A DNA stretch of 31,519 bases from a virus: the IMG/VR virus record IMGVR_UViG_3300045738_000107, positions 1 to 31,519 of that record; one strand, 5' to 3'. The notes beneath the pieces were generated by a model. The model was not told the origin of the DNA. It did not search any database and worked only from the letters and a program-made list of their open reading frames with translations. Made by a program: the position numbers and the translations under genes. Positions 4,440 to 13,500 of this stretch are shown here, one piece after another (within the stretch, counting starts at the first letter, position 1; each line of letters begins with the position of its first letter).

Positions 4440-5399
4440 TCAAAGCGCCAACCGCAAGAACTCGGAACGGCCTGCATCTTCTCGAATCACTCCGTAGGTG
4501 GCTGAAGTCACCATCGTTGCACCCTGCTCTCGAACTCCTCGACAAGTCATGCAGGAGTGGACGCCCTTCACGACCGCGCCCGCTCCGAGAGGTCGCAGCT
4601 CTGGATGATCCATGAGGAACGATGCCACTTGATGCGTAAGCCGTTCCTGTACCTGGAAGCGCCGTGAGAAGGCATGAACGATCCTCGCGATCTTCGAGAG
4701 TCCGATCACCCTACCTTCGGCGGGGATGTATCCGACCGATATTGTTCCGGTGAACGGGAGTAGGTGATGCTCGCAAAGCGAAACGAAGTCAATGTTCTGT
4801 AGAACGACCATCTCGTCGGCGTTCTCTTCATAGAAGACTTTGCACAGCTCCATCGGATCGACGCGATAGCCTTCGGTCATCTCTGCGAAAGCCTTAACAA
4901 CTCGTTTCGGCGTTTCGATCAGCCCTTCCCTGGTTGGATCTTCTCCAACTCGTTCAATGATACGAACCACGGCGTCCTCTGCCGACTGCTCAGAGTCATC
5001 GCCCATCGTCAACTCCCAAGGAAAGACAACCCAGTCGTCAATCTCTTTAGCTTCCGGTGCGCGTTCCTTTGGTGAGTGCGGCTTTCGGATCAAGGCATCG
5101 AAGTAGGCGTCACAGCCATAGTCGCCGCCCTCGATTGCCAGAGCAGCTCGCTCTGCCGTTCTTCCTGAATCAACCAGATCGTCAACAACAACTCCGGCGA
5201 ACATGATGTCATCGACGAGTTGATAGCCGGGGAAGGAACAGGCAAGCATCGCAGCAACGATAGAACCACCTCTCGGGATTCCGTACAACCCTATTGCCAG
5301 CCCATCTCGGTTAAGAGTCTCTACCATAGTCTCGATCTCAATACGTTCGTTGAGTTTAAGAACGAGACGCTCAACATCTTCCCACGTCAAGGTCTTCAT
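4440..5399 (-). CDS. folE: Phosphoribosyltransferase-GTP cyclohydrolase I fusion
   Basis: This 319-residue protein joins two enzymes. Residues 1-130 are a type I phosphoribosyltransferase: GIPRGG (40-45), the PRPP loop VVVDDLVDSGRTA (70-82), and WVVFPWE (123-129), which resembles the purine-contacting WIEQPW of E. coli Gpt. Residues about 135-319 are GTP cyclohydrolase I, with zinc ligands C209, H212 and C283 and H281 in HSCMTCRGV; it makes dihydroneopterin triphosphate, the first step to preQ0. The ATG at 5399 overlaps the queE stop (ATGA) and has GGAG upstream, so I prefer it to the ATG at 5414. The fusion suggests guanine salvage feeding the pathway, which is inference. Confidence 0.93.
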   Translation of the reverse strand: MKTLTWEDVERLVLKLNERIEIETMVETLNRDGLAIGLYGIPRGGSIVAAMLACSFPGYQLVDDIMFAGVVVDDLVDSGRTAERAALAIEGGDYGCDAYFDALIRKPHSPKERAPEAKEIDDWVVFPWELTMGDDSEQSAEDAVVRIIERVGEDPTREGLIETPKRVVKAFAEMTEGYRVDPMELCKVFYEENADEMVVLQNIDFVSLCEHHLLPFTGTISVGYIPAEGRVIGLSKIARIVHAFSRRFQVQERLTHQVASFLMDHPELRPLGAGAVVKGVHSCMTCRGVREQGATMVTSATYGVIREDAGRSEFLRLAL

Positions 5400-6010
5400 C
5401 GGGCTCCGATCCACTTATGGACTTGAAGTGATAGCCTCCAATCCGGGTTCTCAAGGACGAGCTTCTGACACCACGCGACTGCATCTCTGTCAATCGACTG
5501 CCCTCTGAATGCTGGTGAGATGAGCTTGTGATCGGCCTTCGCCGAGGGTTTCGGAATCCCTTGCCCGACATTCCTCACATACTTCAGCTCTGAAACCTTC
5601 TTAGTTCGGATGGCGTGTTCTGCAATCTTCGGCGACAGCGTGATCCAATCGAGCCCGAGTCCGCTGACATCGAACGTCCCGTTCGTTTCGATAGCGGTGT
5701 GAGCGCCTGCATCCTTGAATGCTTCAACGAGTTCCGCATCGAGTTGAAGCCCTGGTTCGCCGCCCGTAAAGATAACGCCTGGAACAGAGCCGCCCGTCAA
5801 TGACTTGGCGACATTCAGGATCTCCTCGCCTGTCAGCGACCGACCGGATACGAACTCGGTGTCGCAATCGAAGTCGGCGTTGGGTTCTTCGTGGCCTCGA
5901 TGGCAATCCATGTTACAACCGCTGAAACGGACGAAGACATTAGGCGTTCCCATGCGGACGCCTTCACCCTGTACCGAGTAAAAGACTTCATTGATTCGGT
6001 ACTTGTTCAT
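5396..6010 (-). CDS. queE: 7-carboxy-7-deazaguanine synthase QueE (variant Cys spacing)
   Basis: The 204-residue radical-SAM enzyme converts 6-carboxytetrahydropterin to 7-carboxy-7-deazaguanine. Residues FYSVQGEG (10-17), FTGGEPGLQ (81-89) and ETNGT are typical of QueE. The cluster cysteines are C32, C36 and C49, that is CX3CX12C, instead of the usual CX3CX2C; the segment 37-46 is an insertion before the conserved FDCDTEF. Longer spacings are known in some QueE proteins (Burkholderia multivorans has CX14CX2C), so activity is likely kept. It overlaps the queD stop as ATGA, with AGAGGTG upstream. Confidence 0.95.
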   Translation of the reverse strand: MNKYRINEVFYSVQGEGVRMGTPNVFVRFSGCNMDCHRGHEEPNADFDCDTEFVSGRSLTGEEILNVAKSLTGGSVPGVIFTGGEPGLQLDAELVEAFKDAGAHTAIETNGTFDVSGLGLDWITLSPKIAEHAIRTKKVSELKYVRNVGQGIPKPSAKADHKLISPAFRGQSIDRDAVAWCQKLVLENPDWRLSLQVHKWIGAR

Positions 6011-6417
6011 CGAGACACCTCTGACCAGCAGTTCGGCGTCTCATAAAGTCGCAACCGAACTACCATCAGCTCTGGAAGAAGCTCCTTCGCCTTCTCGAAA
6101 AGCAGCTCGGCCATGTTCTCGGCTGTCGGGTTCGAGTCCATCAGAAAGAACCGCCACCCATTCACTTCGCAGAGCTTCGCAACGTCCTGGTCGGCATCGA
6201 AGAGGATGCAGCCATGATCAAGATGTTCGTCCACCCATCCACCGAACACTCTCTTCATCACGCTAAAGTCGATCACGCGACCGAGCGAGTCGAGTTCTCC
6301 TCCAACAGTCAGTTCGATCTTGTATCGGTGTCCGTGAAGGTTCCGACATTTCGACTCGTGTTTCATTACGCGGTGCGCGGCATCGAACTCGATCACTCGG
6401 GTACAGTTCGGCATCAT
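6007..6417 (-). CDS. queD: 6-carboxytetrahydropterin synthase QueD
   Basis: This 136-residue protein of the PTPS/QueD fold converts dihydroneopterin triphosphate to 6-carboxytetrahydropterin. Zinc ligands H15 (FDAAH), H28 and H30 (LHGH), the catalytic C24 (KCRNLHGH), D67/H68 (LDHG) and E126 (ETP) are all present, and the length matches bacterial QueD. Two adjacent ATG codons (6417 and 6414) are possible starts; the first overlaps the upstream stop, and GGAG lies 4-7 bases before them. It lies between the FolE and QueC functions in one transcript. Confidence 0.95.
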   Translation of the reverse strand: MMPNCTRVIEFDAAHRVMKHESKCRNLHGHRYKIELTVGGELDSLGRVIDFSVMKRVFGGWVDEHLDHGCILFDADQDVAKLCEVNGWRFFLMDSNPTAENMAELLFEKAKELLPELMVVRLRLYETPNCWSEVSR

Positions 6418-6863
6418 GCGACTCCATTCGTCATCGTGTTCTTAGTAAGCCACCTGAGTTGCTTTCCAATGCCAAGACCTTTCATCGGCACATCAATATG
6501 ACAACCCATCCTTTCTAATGGAGGAATAAGAAATTCTCTGTATCGTTTACCAGCTAGAAACACAATCGACATCGACACATCAAAGACATCAAAGAAATTT
6601 AGTTGAAAGAGGACACGCTTCGCCCATAATCGCCTGTCTTGAATTTTCATTGTGTTTAATGTTTTGTTGTAGGGTTCGATAATCTGATTTGAATCAAGCA
6701 GTCCGTACTTGGCGGATAATATATACCAGCGCGGTGGATTCACTGACTCAATATAGGATCTAGCTTTCAAGAACCAATCGGACTGATATAGATCCTTGGC
6801 AGCAACTGCGTTATTTAATTTTTGACCAACGCAAGACACGAAGTAGATCGGTTCATTCTGCAT
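6414..6863 (-). CDS. DUF6884-like protein in the 7-deazaguanine cassette
   Basis: A 149-residue protein with an N-terminal strand YFVSCVGQK, then WYILSAKYGLLDSNQIIEPYNKTL (about 47-70) and a central hydrophobic segment VSMSIVFLAGKRYREFLIPPL. The pattern C-x2-K near the start followed by SAKYGLLD and PYxxTL is that of DUF6884-type proteins, which have no assigned function that I can state. The gene is clearly A+T-rich: positions 6601-6720 have 48 G+C of 120 (40%), against 36 of 60 in a typical early gene stretch (12241-12300). It is coupled to queC (TAATG) and queD (ATGA), so a role in making or placing the modified base is likely but unproven. Confidence 0.8.
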   Translation of the reverse strand: MQNEPIYFVSCVGQKLNNAVAAKDLYQSDWFLKARSYIESVNPPRWYILSAKYGLLDSNQIIEPYNKTLNTMKIQDRRLWAKRVLFQLNFFDVFDVSMSIVFLAGKRYREFLIPPLERMGCHIDVPMKGLGIGKQLRWLTKNTMTNGVA

Positions 6864-7528
6864 TACACGACTCCCTTCGTCATCGGATCAACGACACCAG
6901 CCTTGGCGAAGGCTTCGATCCGCTCTTGGCAGGAGCCACACTTGCCGCAATGACGGTCGCCGCCCTTGTAGCACGTCCATGTCAACTCCCAAGGAACTCC
7001 GAGCTTCTCGCCAAGCGAAACGATCCCGCCCTTGTCGATGTCAATGAATGGGCGAAGTAGTCGGATCTCGTTCCAGTCGCAGAGCTGCGCGGCAAGATCC
7101 ATCACGGTAGCAAACGACTCCCGACAGTCTGGGTAGATTGCATGATCGCCAGAGTGTGCGCCATAGGCGACAGTACCGGCACCGATGGAGATCGCGTGCC
7201 CGATACCGACCGCAAGCATGATCATGTTCCTATTGGGCACAACGGTTGCTTTCATCGACTCCTCTTCGTAGTGACCTTCCGGCACTTCGATCTCGGGCGA
7301 AGTCAACGCGCTGCCCGCCAGGAGAGAGGTCAACGAAGTGAGATCGACCTTCTCCCACGCCAGACCCTTCCCGAGACAGAGCTGCTCGGCAGCAAGCAGT
7401 TCCCTCTTATGGCGTTGTCCGTAATCGAACGACAGGCACTTCAACTCATGCCCTTGATCGAGTAGGTGGTAGACCATCGTGGCCGAATCCATCCCACCCG
7501 AAACGATTGCAACCGTGTCCCAAGTCAT
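6863..7528 (-). CDS. queC: 7-cyano-7-deazaguanine synthase QueC
   Basis: The 221-residue ATP-dependent enzyme turns 7-carboxy-7-deazaguanine into preQ0. It shows the PP-loop SGGMDS (10-15), VVPNRN (96-101), and the zinc cysteines C186, C194, C197 and C200 in [15 protein letters not shown]. No amidotransferase domain is fused to it, so the expected product is preQ0 itself and not an archaeosine-type base. The ATG at 7528 has GGAGGGAC two bases upstream and overlaps the dpdA stop as ATGA; the ATG at 7540 would put the Shine-Dalgarno inside the gene and is rejected. Confidence 0.96.
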
Positions 7529-8382
7529 AAGTCCCTCCAAAAATTTAGAGCGTTCACAGCCATCACAAGCTCAAAGCCACCATCGCATGATGATATTGCA
7601 ACGAATACCCTCGTTCCGTATTTCCTTTTCATGTCCAGCGCCCACAAAACATTCGCCCTCGAACACAATCTTTCGATTGCCAAATCTCCCTTATGAGAAA
7701 CCCGACTCCAATGCTTCTCCTGCGTCAACTCTCGCGGATCTACACCATGAAAACGGATAGCCCTACACACCTCGTCGCTCGGCCTCTTGACGAAGTCTTT
7801 CCGCATGAGTGAAATCATCTTCCCACGCCCCATGTAAATAGGAACGAAGCCGTATCTGTACCCCATCGAGAAGTTAGAGGAGTCCACCGAGTAGGGTTTG
7901 AAACCTTGGATAAATCCAAACCTCGTAAAACCAAGCCAATGAACCTTCCGATCACCGACGTAGCGCATGATGCCTTTTACGAAACCCTTATTCCCCTTCG
8001 TCCCAACGAGCCCACCGATAGCAACGAGGTCGCTCGTCTCGTAGTAGCGATCCAACTCGGAGACATCTTCTCCTCTGGTGAATATCGGGATCGGCGACAG
8101 TCCTCGCTCAAGCATCCGTTCGTAGTTCTTTCTCGTTCCTTCGCTGTCTCCAATCACGTCTAGCGTGAAATACCGTTCCGGCTGCGGCTTCAACGCTTCG
8201 ATCCAATCGCAGTATTCATCCACGTCGAGAACATCACCGGCCTTCCAGGCAGTAAAGGCACCAGAATCTACGAAAACATTGATTAGTGAACGATTCTCTG
8301 ACCAGACCTTTAGGTATAACTCCGTGCAGTACGGCCAAGCTACCAATACGTTGAGCTTTGAATCAGCGTATCTTGACGGCAT
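7525..8382 (-). CDS. dpdA: DpdA-like DNA 7-deazaguanine transglycosylase
   Basis: A 285-residue protein of the TGT-like DpdA type found in phages with 7-deazaguanine DNA. Visible landmarks are [11 protein letters not shown] (37-47, equivalent to the DSGGF of tRNA-guanine transglycosylase), AIGGLVG (121-127), VHWLGFT (147-153) and [15 protein letters not shown] (164-178). D39 and D167 are the candidate catalytic acids. It should exchange guanine in DNA for preQ0 and release free guanine. The longer frame to 8592 is discarded because its first 70 residues are an out-of-frame reading of the ParB gene; ATG 8382 has GGAGGG seven bases upstream. It overlaps the ParB gene by 20 bases. Confidence 0.88.
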
Positions 8383-8929
8383 CCAAGAACCCTCCGGCCT
8401 TGACCGCCTCGACGATGATCTGGCGAACAGCTTCGGCATCCACCTGGGCACACTCGACAACGACCTTCGACTCGATCCCGTCCGTATGTTCCTTGATGTC
8501 ATCGAGATCGAAGTCGGTGTTCCACTCTTCCAGATCCTGCGCCATCGAGTCGAGCATCTCTGCAAGTCCCTCGCTCTGAGCATCGAGATCACTCAGCAGT
8601 TCCTTGAGCTGCTCTTCGTTCTTGGACGCCATCGCACCAATCGGATCAATGGTCGCCAGGAGTAGATCGGCCTCGGCCTCGTTGACATCGAGAACGAGAA
8701 CGGGCCACTCGGTTGCGTCATCCATCTCGGTGCGAAGGTGTCCGTCGATCAGCTCCAGGCCGTCGTCCGTCTCGCGAGCAATCAACGCCCCAGCGATGCC
8801 GACCTCATCGAGAACGCCACCGAGCGCCTTGCGTTGATCGGCTGGATGCTCTCGCCAGTTCTTCGGGTTCGCCTTCAGCTCGGAGGCTGGGACGCGGCGC
8901 AGTTCCTTGACTCGATCTCTCCAGTTCAT
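8363..8929 (-). CDS. ParB/Srx-domain protein, possible DpdB-like partner
   Basis: This 188-residue protein starts with a ParB N-terminal/sulfiredoxin-like domain: LKANPKNWREHP (18-29), then LELIDGHLR (58-66), where GHLR is the ParB box II position (usually GHRR or GERR). The second half is acidic and helical. Many phages carry such proteins without a known role. Here it directly precedes dpdA, with a 20-base overlap. In bacterial dpd islands DpdB is a ParB/Srx-type ATPase that works with DpdA, so a DpdB-like role is an attractive inference, not shown by sequence. The start has GAGGAG five bases upstream. Confidence 0.85.
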   Translation of the reverse strand: MNWRDRVKELRRVPASELKANPKNWREHPADQRKALGGVLDEVGIAGALIARETDDGLELIDGHLRTEMDDATEWPVLVLDVNEAEADLLLATIDPIGAMASKNEEQLKELLSDLDAQSEGLAEMLDSMAQDLEEWNTDFDLDDIKEHTDGIESKVVVECAQVDAEAVRQIIVEAVKAGGFLDAVKIR

Positions 8930-8979
8930 TCTATCTCCTCTTGAGTTTGACGAGCCACTTCGCTGCGTCTTCGATCACT

Positions 8980-9471
8980 TTATCCTCGCTCTTTTGCGCG
9001 ATCTTCGATCCATTGTTCAGCTTCCCGAAGACACGTCTGCGGGGCATCACCGAAGCAGTTTAGGATCTCTTGCATGATGGCTTCGGCAGCATCTATATCC
9101 TCGTCCATATTCAACCCATCAGAACGCAACTGCGATTCCTTGTCTGTAAACAGGGCTTCAGACAGATCGGATGCCGCTTCATCCACCATCATCGAGATCG
9201 CCATACGCACGCCATGTATGAGATTGATCGTCGAACGAATCAACTCTTCCAGCAGCTTGTTGTCGATGTCTTGATTGTCGCCATTGTATTCAGAGAGAAG
9301 ATACGCACCGAGGTCGAGCGCCTCTTCGTGCGCTTCAATGATGGCGCGATTGCCAACCCACTCGGGTCCGTACTTTACGCGACCACGGCGCAGCTTCTCT
9401 TCCATCTCTCGGATCGGATCAATCTGTTCTTCGATCAGATCGGTATGGTCTTCTGGATCATAGTTCTCCAT
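8980..9471 (-). CDS. Hypothetical acidic helical protein, possibly MazG-like
   Basis: A 163-residue acidic protein. Residues about 27-60, KLRRGRVKYGPEWVGNRAIIEAHEEALDLGAYLL, resemble phage proteins of the all-alpha NTP pyrophosphohydrolase (MazG-like) type, in which a Glu-rich helix (EAHEEALD) binds magnesium. Only one such helix is clear, so enzymatic function is uncertain; a house-cleaning nucleotidase would fit a phage that remodels its guanine pool. The ATG at 9471 follows GGGAGATAACG and overlaps the end of the RuvC-like gene by 14 bases. Confidence 0.7.
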   Translation of the reverse strand: MENYDPEDHTDLIEEQIDPIREMEEKLRRGRVKYGPEWVGNRAIIEAHEEALDLGAYLLSEYNGDNQDIDNKLLEELIRSTINLIHGVRMAISMMVDEAASDLSEALFTDKESQLRSDGLNMDEDIDAAEAIMQEILNCFGDAPQTCLREAEQWIEDRAKERG

Positions 9472-9940
9472 CGTTATCTCCCAGTTCTCTCAATCCAAGT
9501 GAAAGAGTCCAGAGCGCATCGGCAGCGTCTTCCGAATCGGTATGACCGAAGGCGGTGCAAGCGCGAGCGAGCATCGCAGGCTTGCCCGCGTTGCCCTTGC
9601 CGGTAGCGTGCTTCTTGATCGTTCCGATGGGAAGACCGCGAAACGGAATCGAACGCCCTTCGCAGAACTCCGACAGTACGCCGAGGAACCCGCCGTATAT
9701 ATGCGCGGCGTTGCCGGATCGGTGCGCCTGAGCTGCAACCTCCTCGAAGAAGATCACCACGTCTTCGGGTTCGTCGATCAGATCACAGAGGAAGCGCCGG
9801 AACCGAAGGAAGCGCATCCCGCCGCCTTCGTGTCGCCTGGGTGAGAAGTCTGCAACGCCCGAGTGCGAGGCTCGCACCTTCGAGTCATTCGTGTAGGCGT
9901 ATCCGGTCTTCGTCCCGAGGTCGAGGCCGATAACTCGCAT
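9458..9940 (-). CDS. RuvC-like Holliday junction resolvase
   Basis: A 160-residue RNase H-fold nuclease. MRVIGLDLGTKTGYAY gives the first catalytic Asp (D7), IFFEEVAAQ gives E66/E67, and the C-terminal SEDAADAL gives D138 and D141, the D-E-D-D set of RuvC-type resolvases. It would resolve branched DNA before packaging. The frame is open up to 10198, but residues before MRVIG are a shadow of the helicase gene; the true ATG at 9940 overlaps the helicase stop (TGATG) with a GGGGG motif just upstream. Confidence 0.87.
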   Translation of the reverse strand: MRVIGLDLGTKTGYAYTNDSKVRASHSGVADFSPRRHEGGGMRFLRFRRFLCDLIDEPEDVVIFFEEVAAQAHRSGNAAHIYGGFLGVLSEFCEGRSIPFRGLPIGTIKKHATGKGNAGKPAMLARACTAFGHTDSEDAADALWTLSLGLRELGDNDGEL

Positions 9941-10944
9941 CAGTCCCCCTTGCAGAATCGACCACGCGCAAAGTCGCGGAAGAGTGCGCCGATGCTGCCG
10001 CTCCGAGTCGAGCGCGAATAGGGAATGTCCACGTCTACCACGTCCTCGACATCGGTGGAGTTGATTCGGATCACCACGTCGGCAAGGTACTCTAGTGAGC
10101 GGCCTTTGACATGACCTTGCGCGGCCAGCTCGGAAACGATCAGCCAACCGATGCGCCCTTCCGTCGAGCGTCTGGAGTTCATGGCCCAGGATGACCAATC
10201 GCGAAGCAATCGCCAGTAGGCGTTGTCGCCTCCTTCGCTCTGTCCCATGTCCACGATCCGGTTGATCGAGTCGAGGACGATCAAGAGTTTCGTGTCGGTC
10301 GGTTCGATCTCCTTCTCGATCTCATCATAGAGTCCGTCGATGCTGATGCCGGTCGTGACGTTGGCGATCTTCATCCGGCTCGCAACCTGCTCGTCGATCT
10401 TGCCCATGTAGTTCAGGAGTCGAAGCCCGATGTGAGCGCGACTCATCTCGGCGTTGACATAGACCACGCGCCAACCCGCTCGGGCCGATTCGATTCCGCA
10501 GGACAGCGACATCAGGCTCTTGCCGACCTTCGGCTGTCCAGCCATGACCGTGACGCCGACGCCACCCAACCCGGCGAGGATCTCATCGACTGAAGCGCAG
10601 CCGGTTGGATAGTGCGGCGAGGCATCGAAGATGGGCTCGTTGACTTCCTGCCATTCAAGCGGGGCAAGTGTCGCTCCCTTCGCAGATCGAAGTTCAGCCA
10701 GGAGTCGGTTCCCCGGCATCGCGTGATAGCGGCCTTCGATGGAGTAGACCATGCTGCGAAGTTCATCGCTATCGCTATTCTGATCGGCCTCGAAGTCGCG
10801 CAACCATGTTTCGACGCCATGCGGCTTGACTGCATTCTTGAACCACCACGCAAGCATCTCATCGTTTTCGAGATACTTCCGCAGCGTGCTGACCATCGTT
10901 GCAGCTTCGAGCTTCTCTTCTGCTTTCTGGATCTCTTCTCTCAT
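9940..10944 (-). CDS. DnaB/RecA-like replicative helicase
   Basis: A 334-residue RecA-fold ATPase with Walker A GQPKVGKS (136-143), a Walker B strand LLIVLDSINR and a sensor-like LIVSELAAQGHVKGRSLEYLADVVIRI. This layout matches phage DnaB-type or RadA/KaiC-type helicases encoded next to an O-like initiator. The first 110 residues are a helical N-terminal region. ATG 10944 is preferred over the ATG at 11013: it has AGGGGG upstream, and the extra 23 residues overlap a candidate small membrane-protein frame. It may be loaded by the O-like protein, as in lambda, although lambda recruits host DnaB. Confidence 0.85.
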   Translation of the reverse strand: MREEIQKAEEKLEAATMVSTLRKYLENDEMLAWWFKNAVKPHGVETWLRDFEADQNSDSDELRSMVYSIEGRYHAMPGNRLLAELRSAKGATLAPLEWQEVNEPIFDASPHYPTGCASVDEILAGLGGVGVTVMAGQPKVGKSLMSLSCGIESARAGWRVVYVNAEMSRAHIGLRLLNYMGKIDEQVASRMKIANVTTGISIDGLYDEIEKEIEPTDTKLLIVLDSINRIVDMGQSEGGDNAYWRLLRDWSSWAMNSRRSTEGRIGWLIVSELAAQGHVKGRSLEYLADVVIRINSTDVEDVVDVDIPYSRSTRSGSIGALFRDFARGRFCKGD

Positions 10945-11038
10945 CGTGCCCCCTGTTGTTGGTTTCAATTCCAGCTCGCGTTGCCCAACCAGCGACAAAC
11001 GAAACCGAAGCAATCAACCACGCGACGATCCAAGTCAC
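10859..11038 (-). CDS. Candidate small membrane protein (59 aa) overlapping helicase start
   Basis: A GTG start at 11038 overlaps the stop of the O-like gene as GTGA. The first 25 residues, VTWIVAWLIASVSFVAGWAT and on, form one clean transmembrane helix followed by a hydrophilic basic tail. A GAGG motif lies 10 bases upstream. This helix explains the 90 bases between the O-like stop and the helicase ATG, which otherwise code for nothing. The last 28 codons overlap the helicase gene in another frame, which lowers confidence. Small single-helix proteins at this place are common in phages; function unknown. Confidence 0.4.
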   Translation of the reverse strand: MTWIVAWLIASVSFVAGWATRAGIETNNRGHDERRDPESRREARSCNDGQHAAEVSRKR

Positions 11039-11853
11039 AGACCGAACGCCTCGGCGAAGTCCTCGGGCGAGTCCTTCTCTCTCGTATCTTCTTGGCCCTT
11101 GAGTTCCTCCATCGCCTGCGATTCGACCCACGCGACTGCCCTGCGAATCTCGTCGGGCTTCACGTTGCGGAACCAGTTGACGCAAGACCGAACCGGCGAC
11201 TTGTATCCCTTGGCGAGTATCACCGGCTCGATCATCAGGAACCACGCTTGCACCTGATCGGCAGAGTAGAGCGCGCCGCCTGGACGGATGGCGATCAGGG
11301 TGGCGATCTTCTGCTTCGTCAGTCGAGGCTTGAGCCGACCGAAATGGATGCCCATCTCTCTTGTCTTGTTTATCTCTCTATTGTATGCCCCCTCCTGGGG
11401 GTAAGTTCTTCCCCCCTCCTGGGGGTAAGTTGTGGTCAGGAGGGGGGAAGTTGGCGACTTACCCCTTCTAGGGGGGATGTTAGTCTCTGAACTTGCCCCC
11501 TGTGTGGGGTAAGTTGGTCGGCCTCGGATCAACCACTTCCGGTGATCCTTCTTGATCGACAGGGTGGCGATGCGACCTTGCCCGCCCTTCTCGATTCGGA
11601 TGATGTTCTTGGCTTCGAGGGAACGGAGTAGCGAAGGGATCTTGTTTCTCGGGATCGCGGTCAGCTCGGCGAGCTGCGAGGCGGCGATGCGGTCCTTCTT
11701 CTTCTGCCAGCCGTAGGTCTTGCGGATCAACGCCAGGACGACGGCCATCTCGCGACCGCCCAGATTCACGCGACAGAGCGCCTCTAGCAGCTCGTCAGCG
11801 ATCTTTGTGTAACCGTCTTCCAGTTGTGGCGTCGATGATCTAAGTGCGGGCAC
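11035..11853 (-). CDS. Replication initiator, phage O-like N-terminal domain
   Basis: A 272-residue protein. Residues 11-100 match the phage replication protein O N-terminal winged-helix domain: EDGYTKIADELLEALCRVNL, VLALIRKTYGW and a recognition-helix region ASQLAELTAIPRNKIPSLLRSL. This domain binds origin iterons in lambda. Residues about 115-160 are a low-complexity linker with the repeats TYPTQG, TYPQEGG and TYPQEGA, encoded by the iteron-like DNA repeats described separately. The C-terminal part likely contacts the helicase. The start is GTG at 11853 with a weak ribosome site; it overlaps the XRE-like gene by 14 bases. Confidence 0.87.
   Translation of the reverse strand: MPALRSSTPQLEDGYTKIADELLEALCRVNLGGREMAVVLALIRKTYGWQKKKDRIAASQLAELTAIPRNKIPSLLRSLEAKNIIRIEKGGQGRIATLSIKKDHRKWLIRGRPTYPTQGASSETNIPPRRGKSPTSPLLTTTYPQEGGRTYPQEGAYNREINKTREMGIHFGRLKPRLTKQKIATLIAIRPGGALYSADQVQAWFLMIEPVILAKGYKSPVRSCVNWFRNVKPDEIRRAVAWVESQAMEELKGQEDTREKDSPEDFAEAFGL
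11388..11515 (+). repeat. Iteron-like repeats in the initiator gene, candidate replication origin
   Basis: Four related 20-base units lie inside the O-like gene. CCCCCTCCTGGGGGTAAGTT occurs twice exactly (11388-11407 and 11412-11431, 24-base period). An inverted, diverged copy covers 11456-11476, and a fourth direct copy with CCCCCTGTGTGGGGTAAGTT covers 11496-11515. Each has a C-run/G-run dyad followed by TAAGTT. Lambda places its ori iterons in the same linker of gene O, so these are good candidates for the initiator-binding origin. An alternative is a purely protein-level repeat. Confidence 0.6.
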
Positions 11854-12064
11854 GGCGCGTTCTTAGGATATCCTCTCGGCGTCGGTCCCCGACGAGATCG
11901 AATAATGTGATCTCTGGAGCCGCTCGCATGATCTTGAAAGCGGTGAAGGCGCTGGTCCCTTCGCCGTTCTTGATGGCGTTGATTCGGGTCTGGGAGACGC
12001 CCGATATGCTCTCGAACTCCTCCTCTGTAATGGCGTTGATGGCGAGATAGTCGGCGAGTGTCAT
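11840..12064 (-). CDS. Small XRE/Cro-like transcription regulator
   Basis: A 74-residue protein with one helix-turn-helix: MTLADYLAINAITEEEFESISGVSQTRINAIKNGEGTSAF, where ISGVSQTRINAIKNGE is the turn and recognition helix of the XRE/Cro family. It probably binds the operator-like sites just upstream and sets the balance between the leftward and rightward units. ATG 12064 is chosen because the domain starts there. A -10 hexamer TATACT ends 10 bases before it, so its mRNA would be leaderless or nearly so. No repressor-type C-terminal or RecA-cleavage domain is present. Confidence 0.8.
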   Translation of the reverse strand: MTLADYLAINAITEEEFESISGVSQTRINAIKNGEGTSAFTAFKIMRAAPEITLFDLVGDRRREDILRTRRART

Positions 12065-12073
12065 GGGGTTTAG

Positions 12074-12097
12074 AGTATAGCCCAGTTCCGGGTACAA
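12074..12097 (-). promoter_or_regulatory. Leftward promoter -10 with operator-like site O1
   Basis: On the minus strand ACCCGGAACTGGGC (12093-12080) is followed directly by the -10 hexamer TATACT (12079-12074). Transcription would start near 12067, a few bases before the ATG at 12064. A good -35 at 17-base spacing is not evident. TTGTAC lies only 12 bases from the -10, so activation by a bound regulator is possible. Confidence 0.55.
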
Positions 12098-12110
12098 ATC
12101 AGAGGTGCTA

Positions 12111-12134
12111 TTGAACCCGATTCCGGGCTATACT
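12111..12134 (+). promoter_or_regulatory. Rightward promoter -10 with operator-like site O2
   Basis: ACCCGATTCCGGGC (12115-12128) is followed directly by TATACT (12129-12134), the mirror image of the leftward site. The two sites form an imperfect inverted repeat, 17 of 22 matches, centred near 12105. This should drive the early rightward genes starting at 12173 and be repressed when the XRE-like protein fills O2. Confidence 0.55.
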
Positions 12135-12142
12135 TTCAGGGC

Positions 12143-12168
12143 TCTGCATTCCGCAGACGGAGGCAATT
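12143..12168 (+). promoter_or_regulatory. Leader hairpin plus GGAGGCAA ribosome site before the ATPase gene
   Basis: TCTGC (12143-12147) pairs with GCAGA (12153-12157) across a 5-base loop, directly before CGGAGGCAATT. It is the first of a series of leaders in the rightward unit that combine a hairpin with GGAGGCAA. Confidence 0.5.
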
Positions 12169-12172
12169 CATT

Positions 12173-12988
12173 ATGACGAACTATCTGAATCGCGTGGCGA
12201 CTGGCGTCACGCCTCGACCCTTGCGAGTGGCCATCACCGGGCATCCTGGTTCCGGCAAGACCACATTGGCAACCGGCGCTCCGAAGTGTCTTGTGATGCC
12301 GGTCGAAGAAGGACTCGGGATTACGGGAGCGACGGCGCTTCCTGCTCCCAAGTCTTTCGACGATGTGATCGGTCAGCTCATCGAGCTGTCGAAGGAGGAT
12401 CACGACTTCGGAACCTTGGTTGTCGATGCCATCGACGGCATCGAGCCCTTCATCTTCGAGAACATCGTGGCCGAGGCGAAGCCAACGAAGGCGGGGCCGA
12501 TCAAGACTGTCGCCGACATCGGCTTCAACAAAGGCTATGTCGAGGCCGATGCCTACTGGGTCCGACTCTTCAAGGCGCTCGACTATCTGCGCGCCGAGAA
12601 GAACATGAACATCGTGGTGATCTCGCACGTCGCGACGGTCTACTACGATGACCCGACGCTGGGCTCCTACTTCCGGTTCGAGCCCAACCTCCACAAGAGG
12701 ACGGTTCCGTTCCTGACGAAGTGGGCCGATGTGATCGGCTACCTCGACATCGAGCGAACGCTGACCGAGAAGGGCAGCGACCGCCGCACGATCACGACAG
12801 CGATGGCTTCACAGACGCGATGGCTTCACATCACCGACCAAGGACCGTTCATTGCCAAGAACCGATTCGGCATCAGCGGCCCCCTGGAGATCCCAGTCGA
12901 GAACGGATGGACCGTTCTCCGCAACGAGGTCGCTGCGGCATACAAGTCCAAGGCACCGAAGAAGACGAAGAAGAAGGAGGCAGCATGA
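12173..12988 (+). CDS. Sak4-like AAA ATPase (recombination)
   Basis: A 271-residue RecA-fold ATPase with Walker A GHPGSGKT (23-30), a Walker B strand FGTLVVDAIDGIE and an IVVISHV sensor strand. The pattern fits the phage AAA_24/Sak4 family, whose members assist single-strand annealing together with an SSB-type protein. The next gene is such a protein and the one after is a nuclease, giving a full recombination set. The C-terminus is Lys-rich (KSKAPKKTKKKEAA). Its stop overlaps the next ATG (ATGA). It is the first gene after the rightward promoter. Confidence 0.85.
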   Translation: MTNYLNRVATGVTPRPLRVAITGHPGSGKTTLATGAPKCLVMPVEEGLGITGATALPAPKSFDDVIGQLIELSKEDHDFGTLVVDAIDGIEPFIFENIVAEAKPTKAGPIKTVADIGFNKGYVEADAYWVRLFKALDYLRAEKNMNIVVISHVATVYYDDPTLGSYFRFEPNLHKRTVPFLTKWADVIGYLDIERTLTEKGSDRRTITTAMASQTRWLHITDQGPFIAKNRFGISGPLEIPVENGWTVLRNEVAAAYKSKAPKKTKKKEAA

Positions 12989-13500
12989 GCGAAACATTCG
13001 ATATCGACCTGTCCAACGTGGACACCAGTTCAACAGGCGGAGGCGGGTGGTCCGCATTCCCGAGCGGCGAATACCGAGCGATGATTACGAGGGCCGAGGT
13101 CAGCGACACCCGAGCGGGCACAGGCAAGCGCCTCGCTCTGGAGTTCACGATCCTCTCCGACGATGATCTGAACGGTCGCAAACACTGGGAGGGCTTGAAC
13201 ATCGTGAACCCGAGCGAGGTCGCGCAGCGCATCGCGCACGAACATCTCGCAATGCTCGCAGATGCCGCAGGGCTGGAGCGCGACTTCCTCAAGACCAAAG
13301 GCACCGGAGCCCTCGAAGGCAAGGTCGTCTTGGCTCAGATCGCCAAGGTGAAGGCGAAGGAAAGCCAGATCGAGTTCGCGGACAAGGATGGCTTCGAGAA
13401 CGTCGTGCGTTCCTACAGCGCGACGGGCGGCGGAGCAACGGAGGCGAAGACGAAGCAACCCGCGTCGAAGCCTGCCGTGTCGGACGACATTCCTTTTTAG
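12985..13500 (+). CDS. DUF669-type ssDNA-binding-like protein
   Basis: A 171-residue protein of the phage DUF669 type: FPSGEYRAMITRAEVSDT, RLALEFTILSDDDLNGRKHWEGLNI, and a lysine-rich middle. The acidic tip SDDIPF resembles the C-terminal partner-binding tip of bacterial SSB, and DUF669 proteins usually take the SSB place beside Sak4. ATG 12985 sits in ATGA with the upstream stop and has GGAGGCAGC before it; the frame is open further upstream, but that part is a shadow. Binding single-stranded DNA is inferred from family and tip. Confidence 0.82.
   Translation: MSETFDIDLSNVDTSSTGGGGWSAFPSGEYRAMITRAEVSDTRAGTGKRLALEFTILSDDDLNGRKHWEGLNIVNPSEVAQRIAHEHLAMLADAAGLERDFLKTKGTGALEGKVVLAQIAKVKAKESQIEFADKDGFENVVRSYSATGGGATEAKTKQPASKPAVSDDIPF

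Follow-up and report, generated by a model that had tools for sequence, protein, structure and literature searches.

We propose that a cassette on the minus strand (positions 4440–8929) of the IMG/VR virus record IMGVR_UViG_3300045738_000107 is a phage operon that hypermodifies DNA with 7-deazaguanines and in which a DUF6884 protein serves as the tailoring enzyme. We consider this the best explanation overall and assign it a probability of roughly 0.55. The record, hereafter the window, is a contig of 31,519 bases that is classed as linear and may therefore be a fragment; according to the open reading frame (ORF) listing and three profile libraries, its cassette encodes FolE, QueE, QueD, the DUF6884 protein, QueC, a DpdA-type transglycosylase and a ParB-like protein. 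That the cassette serves 7-deazaguanine modification of DNA is very likely, and it is likely that DUF6884 acts on the nitrile of 7-cyano-7-deazaguanine (preQ0); for 2'-deoxy-7-amido-7-deazaguanosine (dADG) as the final product we see an even chance. Synthesis of preQ0 and its insertion into DNA, as put forward in the original prediction for this DNA, are thus well supported, whereas the deoxynucleoside of preQ0 (dPreQ0), given there as the predicted base, is probably not the end product. DUF6884, which figured in that account only as a caveat, is the likely tailoring enzyme, and the phage DNA probably carries an amide-type or other altered base and not plain preQ0.

The DUF6884 protein matches PF21818 with 162.5 bits (cut-off 30) and contains C11-x3-K15 and LSAKYG, corresponding to the CxxxK and LSAxxG motifs noted by the Pfam authors, who tie the family to YaaA (PMC11701544). 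One survey gives DUF6884 as the domain of DpdC (PMC11888242); in another, DpdC is described as belonging to DUF328/PF03883 and as converting dPreQ0 to dADG by hydrolysis (PMC12839542). The PADLOC DpdC models match the window protein weakly (8.4e-6, over 54 residues only), and such weak matches were obtained for 5/5 phage-type DUF6884 proteins tried; matches elsewhere range from 7e-9 to 5e-4 (7e-9 in L004, 6e-5 in L006, 4e-4 in L009 and L016). Alignment of DUF6884 with DpdC from a bacterial Dpd island (L146) gave an hhalign probability of 87 (E 3.8e-6), and a second alignment gave 81 (1.2e-5). Searches for bacterial DpdC among genomes of the class of Paraburkholderia and of Granulosicoccus returned 0/274 and 1/369, the single match being the reference island. 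In the predicted structure (predicted local distance difference test, pLDDT, 91.5) the nearest fold is that of E. coli YaaA (Foldseek 4.2e-5; Z 9.5), followed by AF0587 (Z 7.9, root mean square deviation (rmsd) 3.9, 123 aligned), with all other rows at 6.4 or below. AF0587 carries the ArcS core, as indicated by a match of 1.6e-11 with a profile from archaeal sequences of DUF5591, which we take to be that core, and a C-x3-K after the first strand is common to DUF6884 and AF0587/ArcS. ArcS acts on preQ0 in tRNA (PMC11298593).

The genomic context of DUF6884 was followed across related loci. When IMG/VR was scanned with the DpdA alignment, 80 loci were recovered which, together with earlier loci and after removal of near copies, amounted to 61 distinct DpdA proteins; counts of downstream genes cover the 54 loci with more than 2.8 kb downstream of dpdA. 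DUF6884 lies directly after queC in the window, in the viral loci L009, L011, L016, L024, L029, L055 and L059 and in the cellular loci L098, L099, L102 and L107, and these loci are scattered on the DpdA tree, where the 12 labelled rows account for 12 changes and well-supported branches force at least 7 of these. Among ten cellular genomes that contain a DpdA relative, 4/4 DUF6884 genes above the cut-off are on the dpdA contig. A 148.7-kb viral contig (L006, 7089–8444) encodes a 451-residue protein that unites a DpdA/tRNA-guanine transglycosylase (TGT) domain (PADLOC DpdA 2.4e-23; PF01702 1.6e-6) with a DUF6884 domain. DUF6884 was found in 10/54 dpdA loci against 74/50,697 phage records (Fisher p about 2e-18), in searches of unequal sensitivity; a scan of viral contigs with a single DUF6884 protein as query gave one locus. 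Because of the DpdC match, the YaaA/ArcS-core fold, the recurrence beside queC and the fusion to DpdA, we regard dADG as likelier than dPreQ0.

Other arrangements of DUF6884 genes were also encountered. The L006 contig holds a second one (G001:C1:120497-120880), and in L029 (2296–3345; L030 is alike) a tandem pair follows queC, with two ORFs resembling phosphoribosyltransferases (PRTases) further down. In Mycobacterium phage Bipper (L108), which is without queC, an unknown 141-residue gene (2047–2472) stands between dpdA and queD, and a search of this phage for DUF6884 found none. DUF6884 and PRTase recur beside preQ0 genes outside phages: in the actinobacterial locus L147 (G638:C24:62000-81900; 7353–11413, minus strand) they stand with QueE, PIG-L and FolE. 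Another actinobacterial locus, L148 (G636:C20:100-18000; 4660–13036), contains in one run queC, queD, queE, a reverse transcriptase, an FGE-sulfatase-type protein, DUF6884, a radical SAM protein, a PRTase and a 5'-3' exonuclease, and resembles a system of the diversity-generating or conflict type assembled around 7-deazaguanine genes.

Insertion of the base is attributed to the DpdA-type protein. An AlphaFold2 model from a 15-sequence alignment (pLDDT 88.3, predicted TM-score 0.87) was compared with the PDB by applying VIA-align to the Foldseek list, and the best 50 rows were all TGTs (Z 13.2–13.8; best row Z 13.8, rmsd 3.5, 236 aligned). Foldseek returned no PDB match at E<=0.001; by Foldseek alone, an archaeosine TGT is in fifth place (E 0.016). 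In structure searches, the protein thus groups with TGTs and not with unrelated proteins, the outcome that the original prediction had named as refuting it. Residues D39, D75 and D167 and G123-G124-L125 are invariant in the 15 DpdA sequences and, by analogy with TGT, would be the catalytic residues and the presumed base-binding loop. No Pfam match was obtained for the window DpdA, and the TGT zinc motif CxCxxC, sought in its sequence, is absent; the bacterial DpdA on L146 carries CKCPICK. By its predicted fold and profile matches we assign the protein to the DpdA group and not to the zinc-type TGTs. Two irregular dpdA loci may be mentioned: a tandem dpdA pair that follows a ParB-like gene, queC lying some 1.6 kb beyond (L017, 7995–9643), and a dpdA frame interrupted by a stop (L019, 820–1701) that is open in the near-identical copy L018.

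Two features had been overlooked in the original prediction, namely the constant ParB-like/dpdA pairing and the PRTase domain fused to FolE. The ParB-like protein displays a DGHLR motif at residue 62 and has neither a ParB Pfam match nor a PADLOC match of its own, the PADLOC DpdB models included. In 60/60 related loci that could be tested, a homologous ORF immediately precedes dpdA or overlaps it, and such pairing is a constant feature of this group of DpdA proteins; in phage Bipper, the ParB-like gene is one small gene upstream of dpdA. Comparison with DpdB, a ParB-like ATPase, gave an hhalign probability of 67.5 (E 5e-5), with 188 residues against about 350–380, and the protein is probably a DpdB-like helper that engages DNA as the partner of DpdA. 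As for FolE, its N-terminal part matches PF00156 below the cut-off (1.9e-4), phrog_8995 at 1.9e-6 and the PDB purine PRTase GpT-2 at 0.0043, and contains PRGG, VVDDLVDSGRT (the phosphoribosyl pyrophosphate (PRPP) loop) and DWVVFPWE (the purine-site W(I/V)xFPWE), of which the PRPP loop and W(I/V)xFPWE are kept in most relatives. Presumably the domain resembles E. coli Gpt. A PRTase-like domain is present in 24/54 related dpdA loci; it is fused to FolE in L009, L067, L079, L082, L083 and MMDA13 and encoded by a separate gene in L010, L018, L023 and others, and alignments covering at least 80% of the PRTase–FolE protein of the window were obtained for 33 records. Since DpdA would release guanine, the role that we prefer for this domain is salvage, in which it may recycle the released guanine to GMP.

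Taken together, the strong family membership of FolE, QueD, QueE and QueC suggests that they would convert GTP to preQ0, and fold, motifs and context suggest that DpdA, probably with help from the ParB-like protein, would swap guanine in DNA for preQ0. More speculatively, the Gpt-like domain could return released guanine to the GTP pool, which would drive the exchange forward and supply preQ0 synthesis. DUF6884 may be a hitherto unrecognised phage enzyme for the preQ0 nitrile in DNA and may constitute, together with ArcS and DpdC, one superfamily of nitrile-acting nucleic-acid enzymes, with dADG from a dedicated phage enzyme or a base new to DNA as the product, a proposal for which we judge the prospects to be balanced. 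Protection from restriction is plausible but would depend on the base and its density: in the plasmid assay for 9g, EcoRI was not blocked by dPreQ0 (PMC6884629), and dADG at about 0.13% had no visible effect in MED16 (PMC8306585).

Several observations weigh against tailoring by DUF6884. With 149 residues the protein is about half as long as DpdC (~310), the C-terminal half of which is unmatched. The profile comparison of ArcS with DUF6884 is not significant (hhalign probability 1.4), its score of 18.1 being lower than the highest of 30 column-shuffled controls (21.3; control mean 13.4), and the link to ArcS is consequently one of fold and motif only; of the full motif PCxxxKPYxxSxxH of the ArcS sequences compared, absent from the DUF6884 protein, only C-x3-K is kept. 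Furthermore, dADG has been measured in phages 7-11, HVTV-1, MED16, CP220 and nt-1 (PMC6884629, PMC8306585), and none of these five, searched whole, yielded a DUF6884 or YaaA/DpdC-type (PF03883) match, so that dADG can arise without DUF6884. In most of those phages dADG amounts to traces, CP220 being the exception (PMC6884629, PMC8306585), and Campylobacter phages of the CP220 kind are listed without DpdA (PMC6884629). Many DUF6884 genes have no dpdA near them in the stretches inspected, as in Caulobacter phage Kronos and in actinobacterial fusions, and the family is therefore broader than this pathway and not specific to it, while about four in five related dpdA cassettes are without DUF6884. 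Finally, no phage with a cassette of this type was found to have been analysed chemically in the literature searched.

The lack of DUF6884 in most cassette relatives would suit a plain dPreQ0 system of the CAjan/Rosebush kind, in which DUF6884 functions in DNA repair or stress and only happens to lie within the operon. CAjan, which has a DpdA along with preQ0 genes, contains dPreQ0 (PMC6884629), and a search of it for DUF6884 gave no match; the family member YfjM is reported among DNA-lesion interactors, and a repair role has been proposed for it (PMC11701544). We nevertheless hold this explanation to be unlikely, since DUF6884 occurs repeatedly beside queC in unlinked DpdA lineages, is fused to DpdA and resembles DpdC. 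A more doubtful alternative is that DUF6884 acts in the manner of ArcS and adds an amine donor to the nitrile, the base being an archaeosine-like amidine or an undescribed adduct. The ArcS core of the second-best fold match, AF0587, and the shared C-x3-K would agree with this; however, the partial motif and the non-significant profile comparison do not, and the DpdC match points to hydration.

The occurrence of the Gpt-like domain, fused or alone, in 24/54 related loci could mean that this domain supplies DNA polymerase with a preQ0 nucleotide, a route that would not need DpdA, of the kind suggested for Campylobacter phages and mentioned in PMC6884629; we find this improbable, as DpdA is present and renders a second route unneeded, and the cassette showed no kinase or reductase that could act on such a nucleotide. 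It is very improbable that the cassette boosts preQ0 for queuosine in host tRNA and leaves DNA unmodified, as has been proposed for phages with preQ0 genes without DpdA (PMC6884629), because DpdA is present here and paired with a ParB-like gene, the TGT-like gene matches the phage DpdA group, and DNA modification in CAjan needs DpdA (PMC6884629).

The organization of the cassette (Table 1) agrees with the earlier description of FolE, QueD, QueE, QueC and a DpdA-like protein encoded contiguously, with overlaps, on one strand, and the active-site residues said to be visible in each enzyme were recovered as motifs: CEHH and CMTCRG in FolE, SGGMDS and CGKCGSC in QueC, HGH in QueD, three cluster cysteines and TGGEP in QueE, and DSGAF, YFTLD, GGLVGT and VDSS in DpdA. 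ATGA overlaps are found at four junctions (dpdA/queC, DUF6884/queD, queD/queE and queE/folE), the queC/DUF6884 junction is TAATG and the ParB and dpdA genes overlap by 20 nt; with such overlapping junctions, the genes look translationally coupled. For QueC there is also a longer ORF with a TTG start reaching 7540. The best NCBIfam model for QueE is queE_Cx14CxxC (2.5e-39, though under the model cut-off), and its cluster cysteines line up with those of relatives; the loop between cluster cysteines 2 and 3 is lengthened (CNMDCHRGHEEPNADFDCDTEF), and L059 has a similar, shorter loop. A search of the whole record for QueF found none and QueC is without an amidotransferase domain, in accordance with the reported lack of QueF and of an amidotransferase-fused QueC. 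The cassette is flanked by genes for a phage_O-type protein, a DnaB-like helicase and a RuvC-like protein on one side and by terminase and portal genes on the other, which bears out its placement between replication and packaging genes.

Table 1. Genes of the cassette in the window, in order from the first gene
Feature	Position	Strand	Profile matches and remarks
ParB-like protein, 188 aa, first cassette gene	8363..8929	-	phrog_620 1.6e-8, phrog_498 5.7e-10
DpdA-type DNA-guanine transglycosylase, 285 aa	7525..8382	-	phrog_887 3e-31, phrog_7068 2.5e-17; probable start 8382, in line with the original prediction
QueC, preQ0 synthase, without amidotransferase domain	6863..7528	-	PF06508 5.8e-61; probable ATG 7528
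DUF6884 protein, 149 aa	6414..6863	-	PF21818 7.7e-48
QueD, 136 aa	6007..6417	-	PF01242 7e-31
QueE radical-SAM enzyme, 204 aa	5396..6010	-	PF04055 2.9e-8, phrog_2076 1e-29
Gpt-like PRTase (about residues 1–135) + FolE, 319 aa	4440..5399	-	PF01227 1.2e-63, PF00156 1.9e-4 (below cut-off); probable ATG 5399

All four preQ0 genes adjoin dpdA in 48/54 related loci, and the arrangement is thus far beyond chance. The core cassette is of a widespread and known kind (PMC6884629), phage preQ0/DpdA cassettes having been known since 2019. The group 2 phage cassettes (Hutinet et al.) have the same FolE, QueD, QueE, amidotransferase-less QueC and DpdA, and in these phages about 28–32% of G is dPreQ0 (PMC6884629); compared with them, the window adds DUF6884 inside the operon, the PRTase on FolE and the ParB-like gene before dpdA. 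In CAjan, which is without DUF6884, dpdA is flanked on both sides by small hypothetical genes. MMDA13, PaMx25, VpKK5 and others share the two-domain PRTase–FolE, although MMDA13 differs in having a gene similar to queF, and the region of it that was examined yielded no DUF6884. In the isolated Fusobacterium phage phiFN37 (OR492271), the ParB-like gene, dpdA and DUF6884 are contiguous as in the window; however, a gene for a queuosine-precursor transporter follows DUF6884 in place of the preQ0 operon, and its DpdA is distant from that of the window (27.6% identity, 203 residues). In the bacterial Dpd island L146, too, genes for DpdA, its ParB-like partner and a member of the YaaA family adjoin one another. 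Sequence similarity of the cassette to bacterial Dpd islands is weak, its proteins are shorter and its preQ0 genes are built in, and PADLOC scans of the seven cassette proteins revealed no restriction gene such as dpdD–dpdK of the Dpd defence system, in contrast to those islands. With archaeal ArcS, the predicted fold of DUF6884 has its resemblance to the ArcS-core protein AF0587 in common, and neither a significant profile match nor the full motif.

To the known preQ0/DpdA systems, the window and its relatives add DUF6884 as a tailoring candidate, a DpdA–DUF6884 fusion, the PRTase domain and a ParB partner that is constantly present. The literature searched, which did not include a 2023 paper on further phage bases, makes no mention of DpdC-like proteins within phage cassettes, and priority is accordingly uncertain. 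The conversion of preQ0 in phage DNA into the amide has been ascribed to an unidentified protein or mechanism (PMC6884629, PMC8306585), and DUF6884 provides a concrete, small candidate for this step with a recurrent place in operons, linking by fold the DpdC of bacterial defence, the ArcS of archaeal tRNA modification and YaaA. The ParB–dpdA pair and the PRTase–FolE fusion likewise suggest testable ways in which the enzymes might engage DNA and deal with the guanine set free. Should dADG or a different altered base be confirmed, the prediction of bases from phage gene lists would change for every cassette that includes DUF6884.

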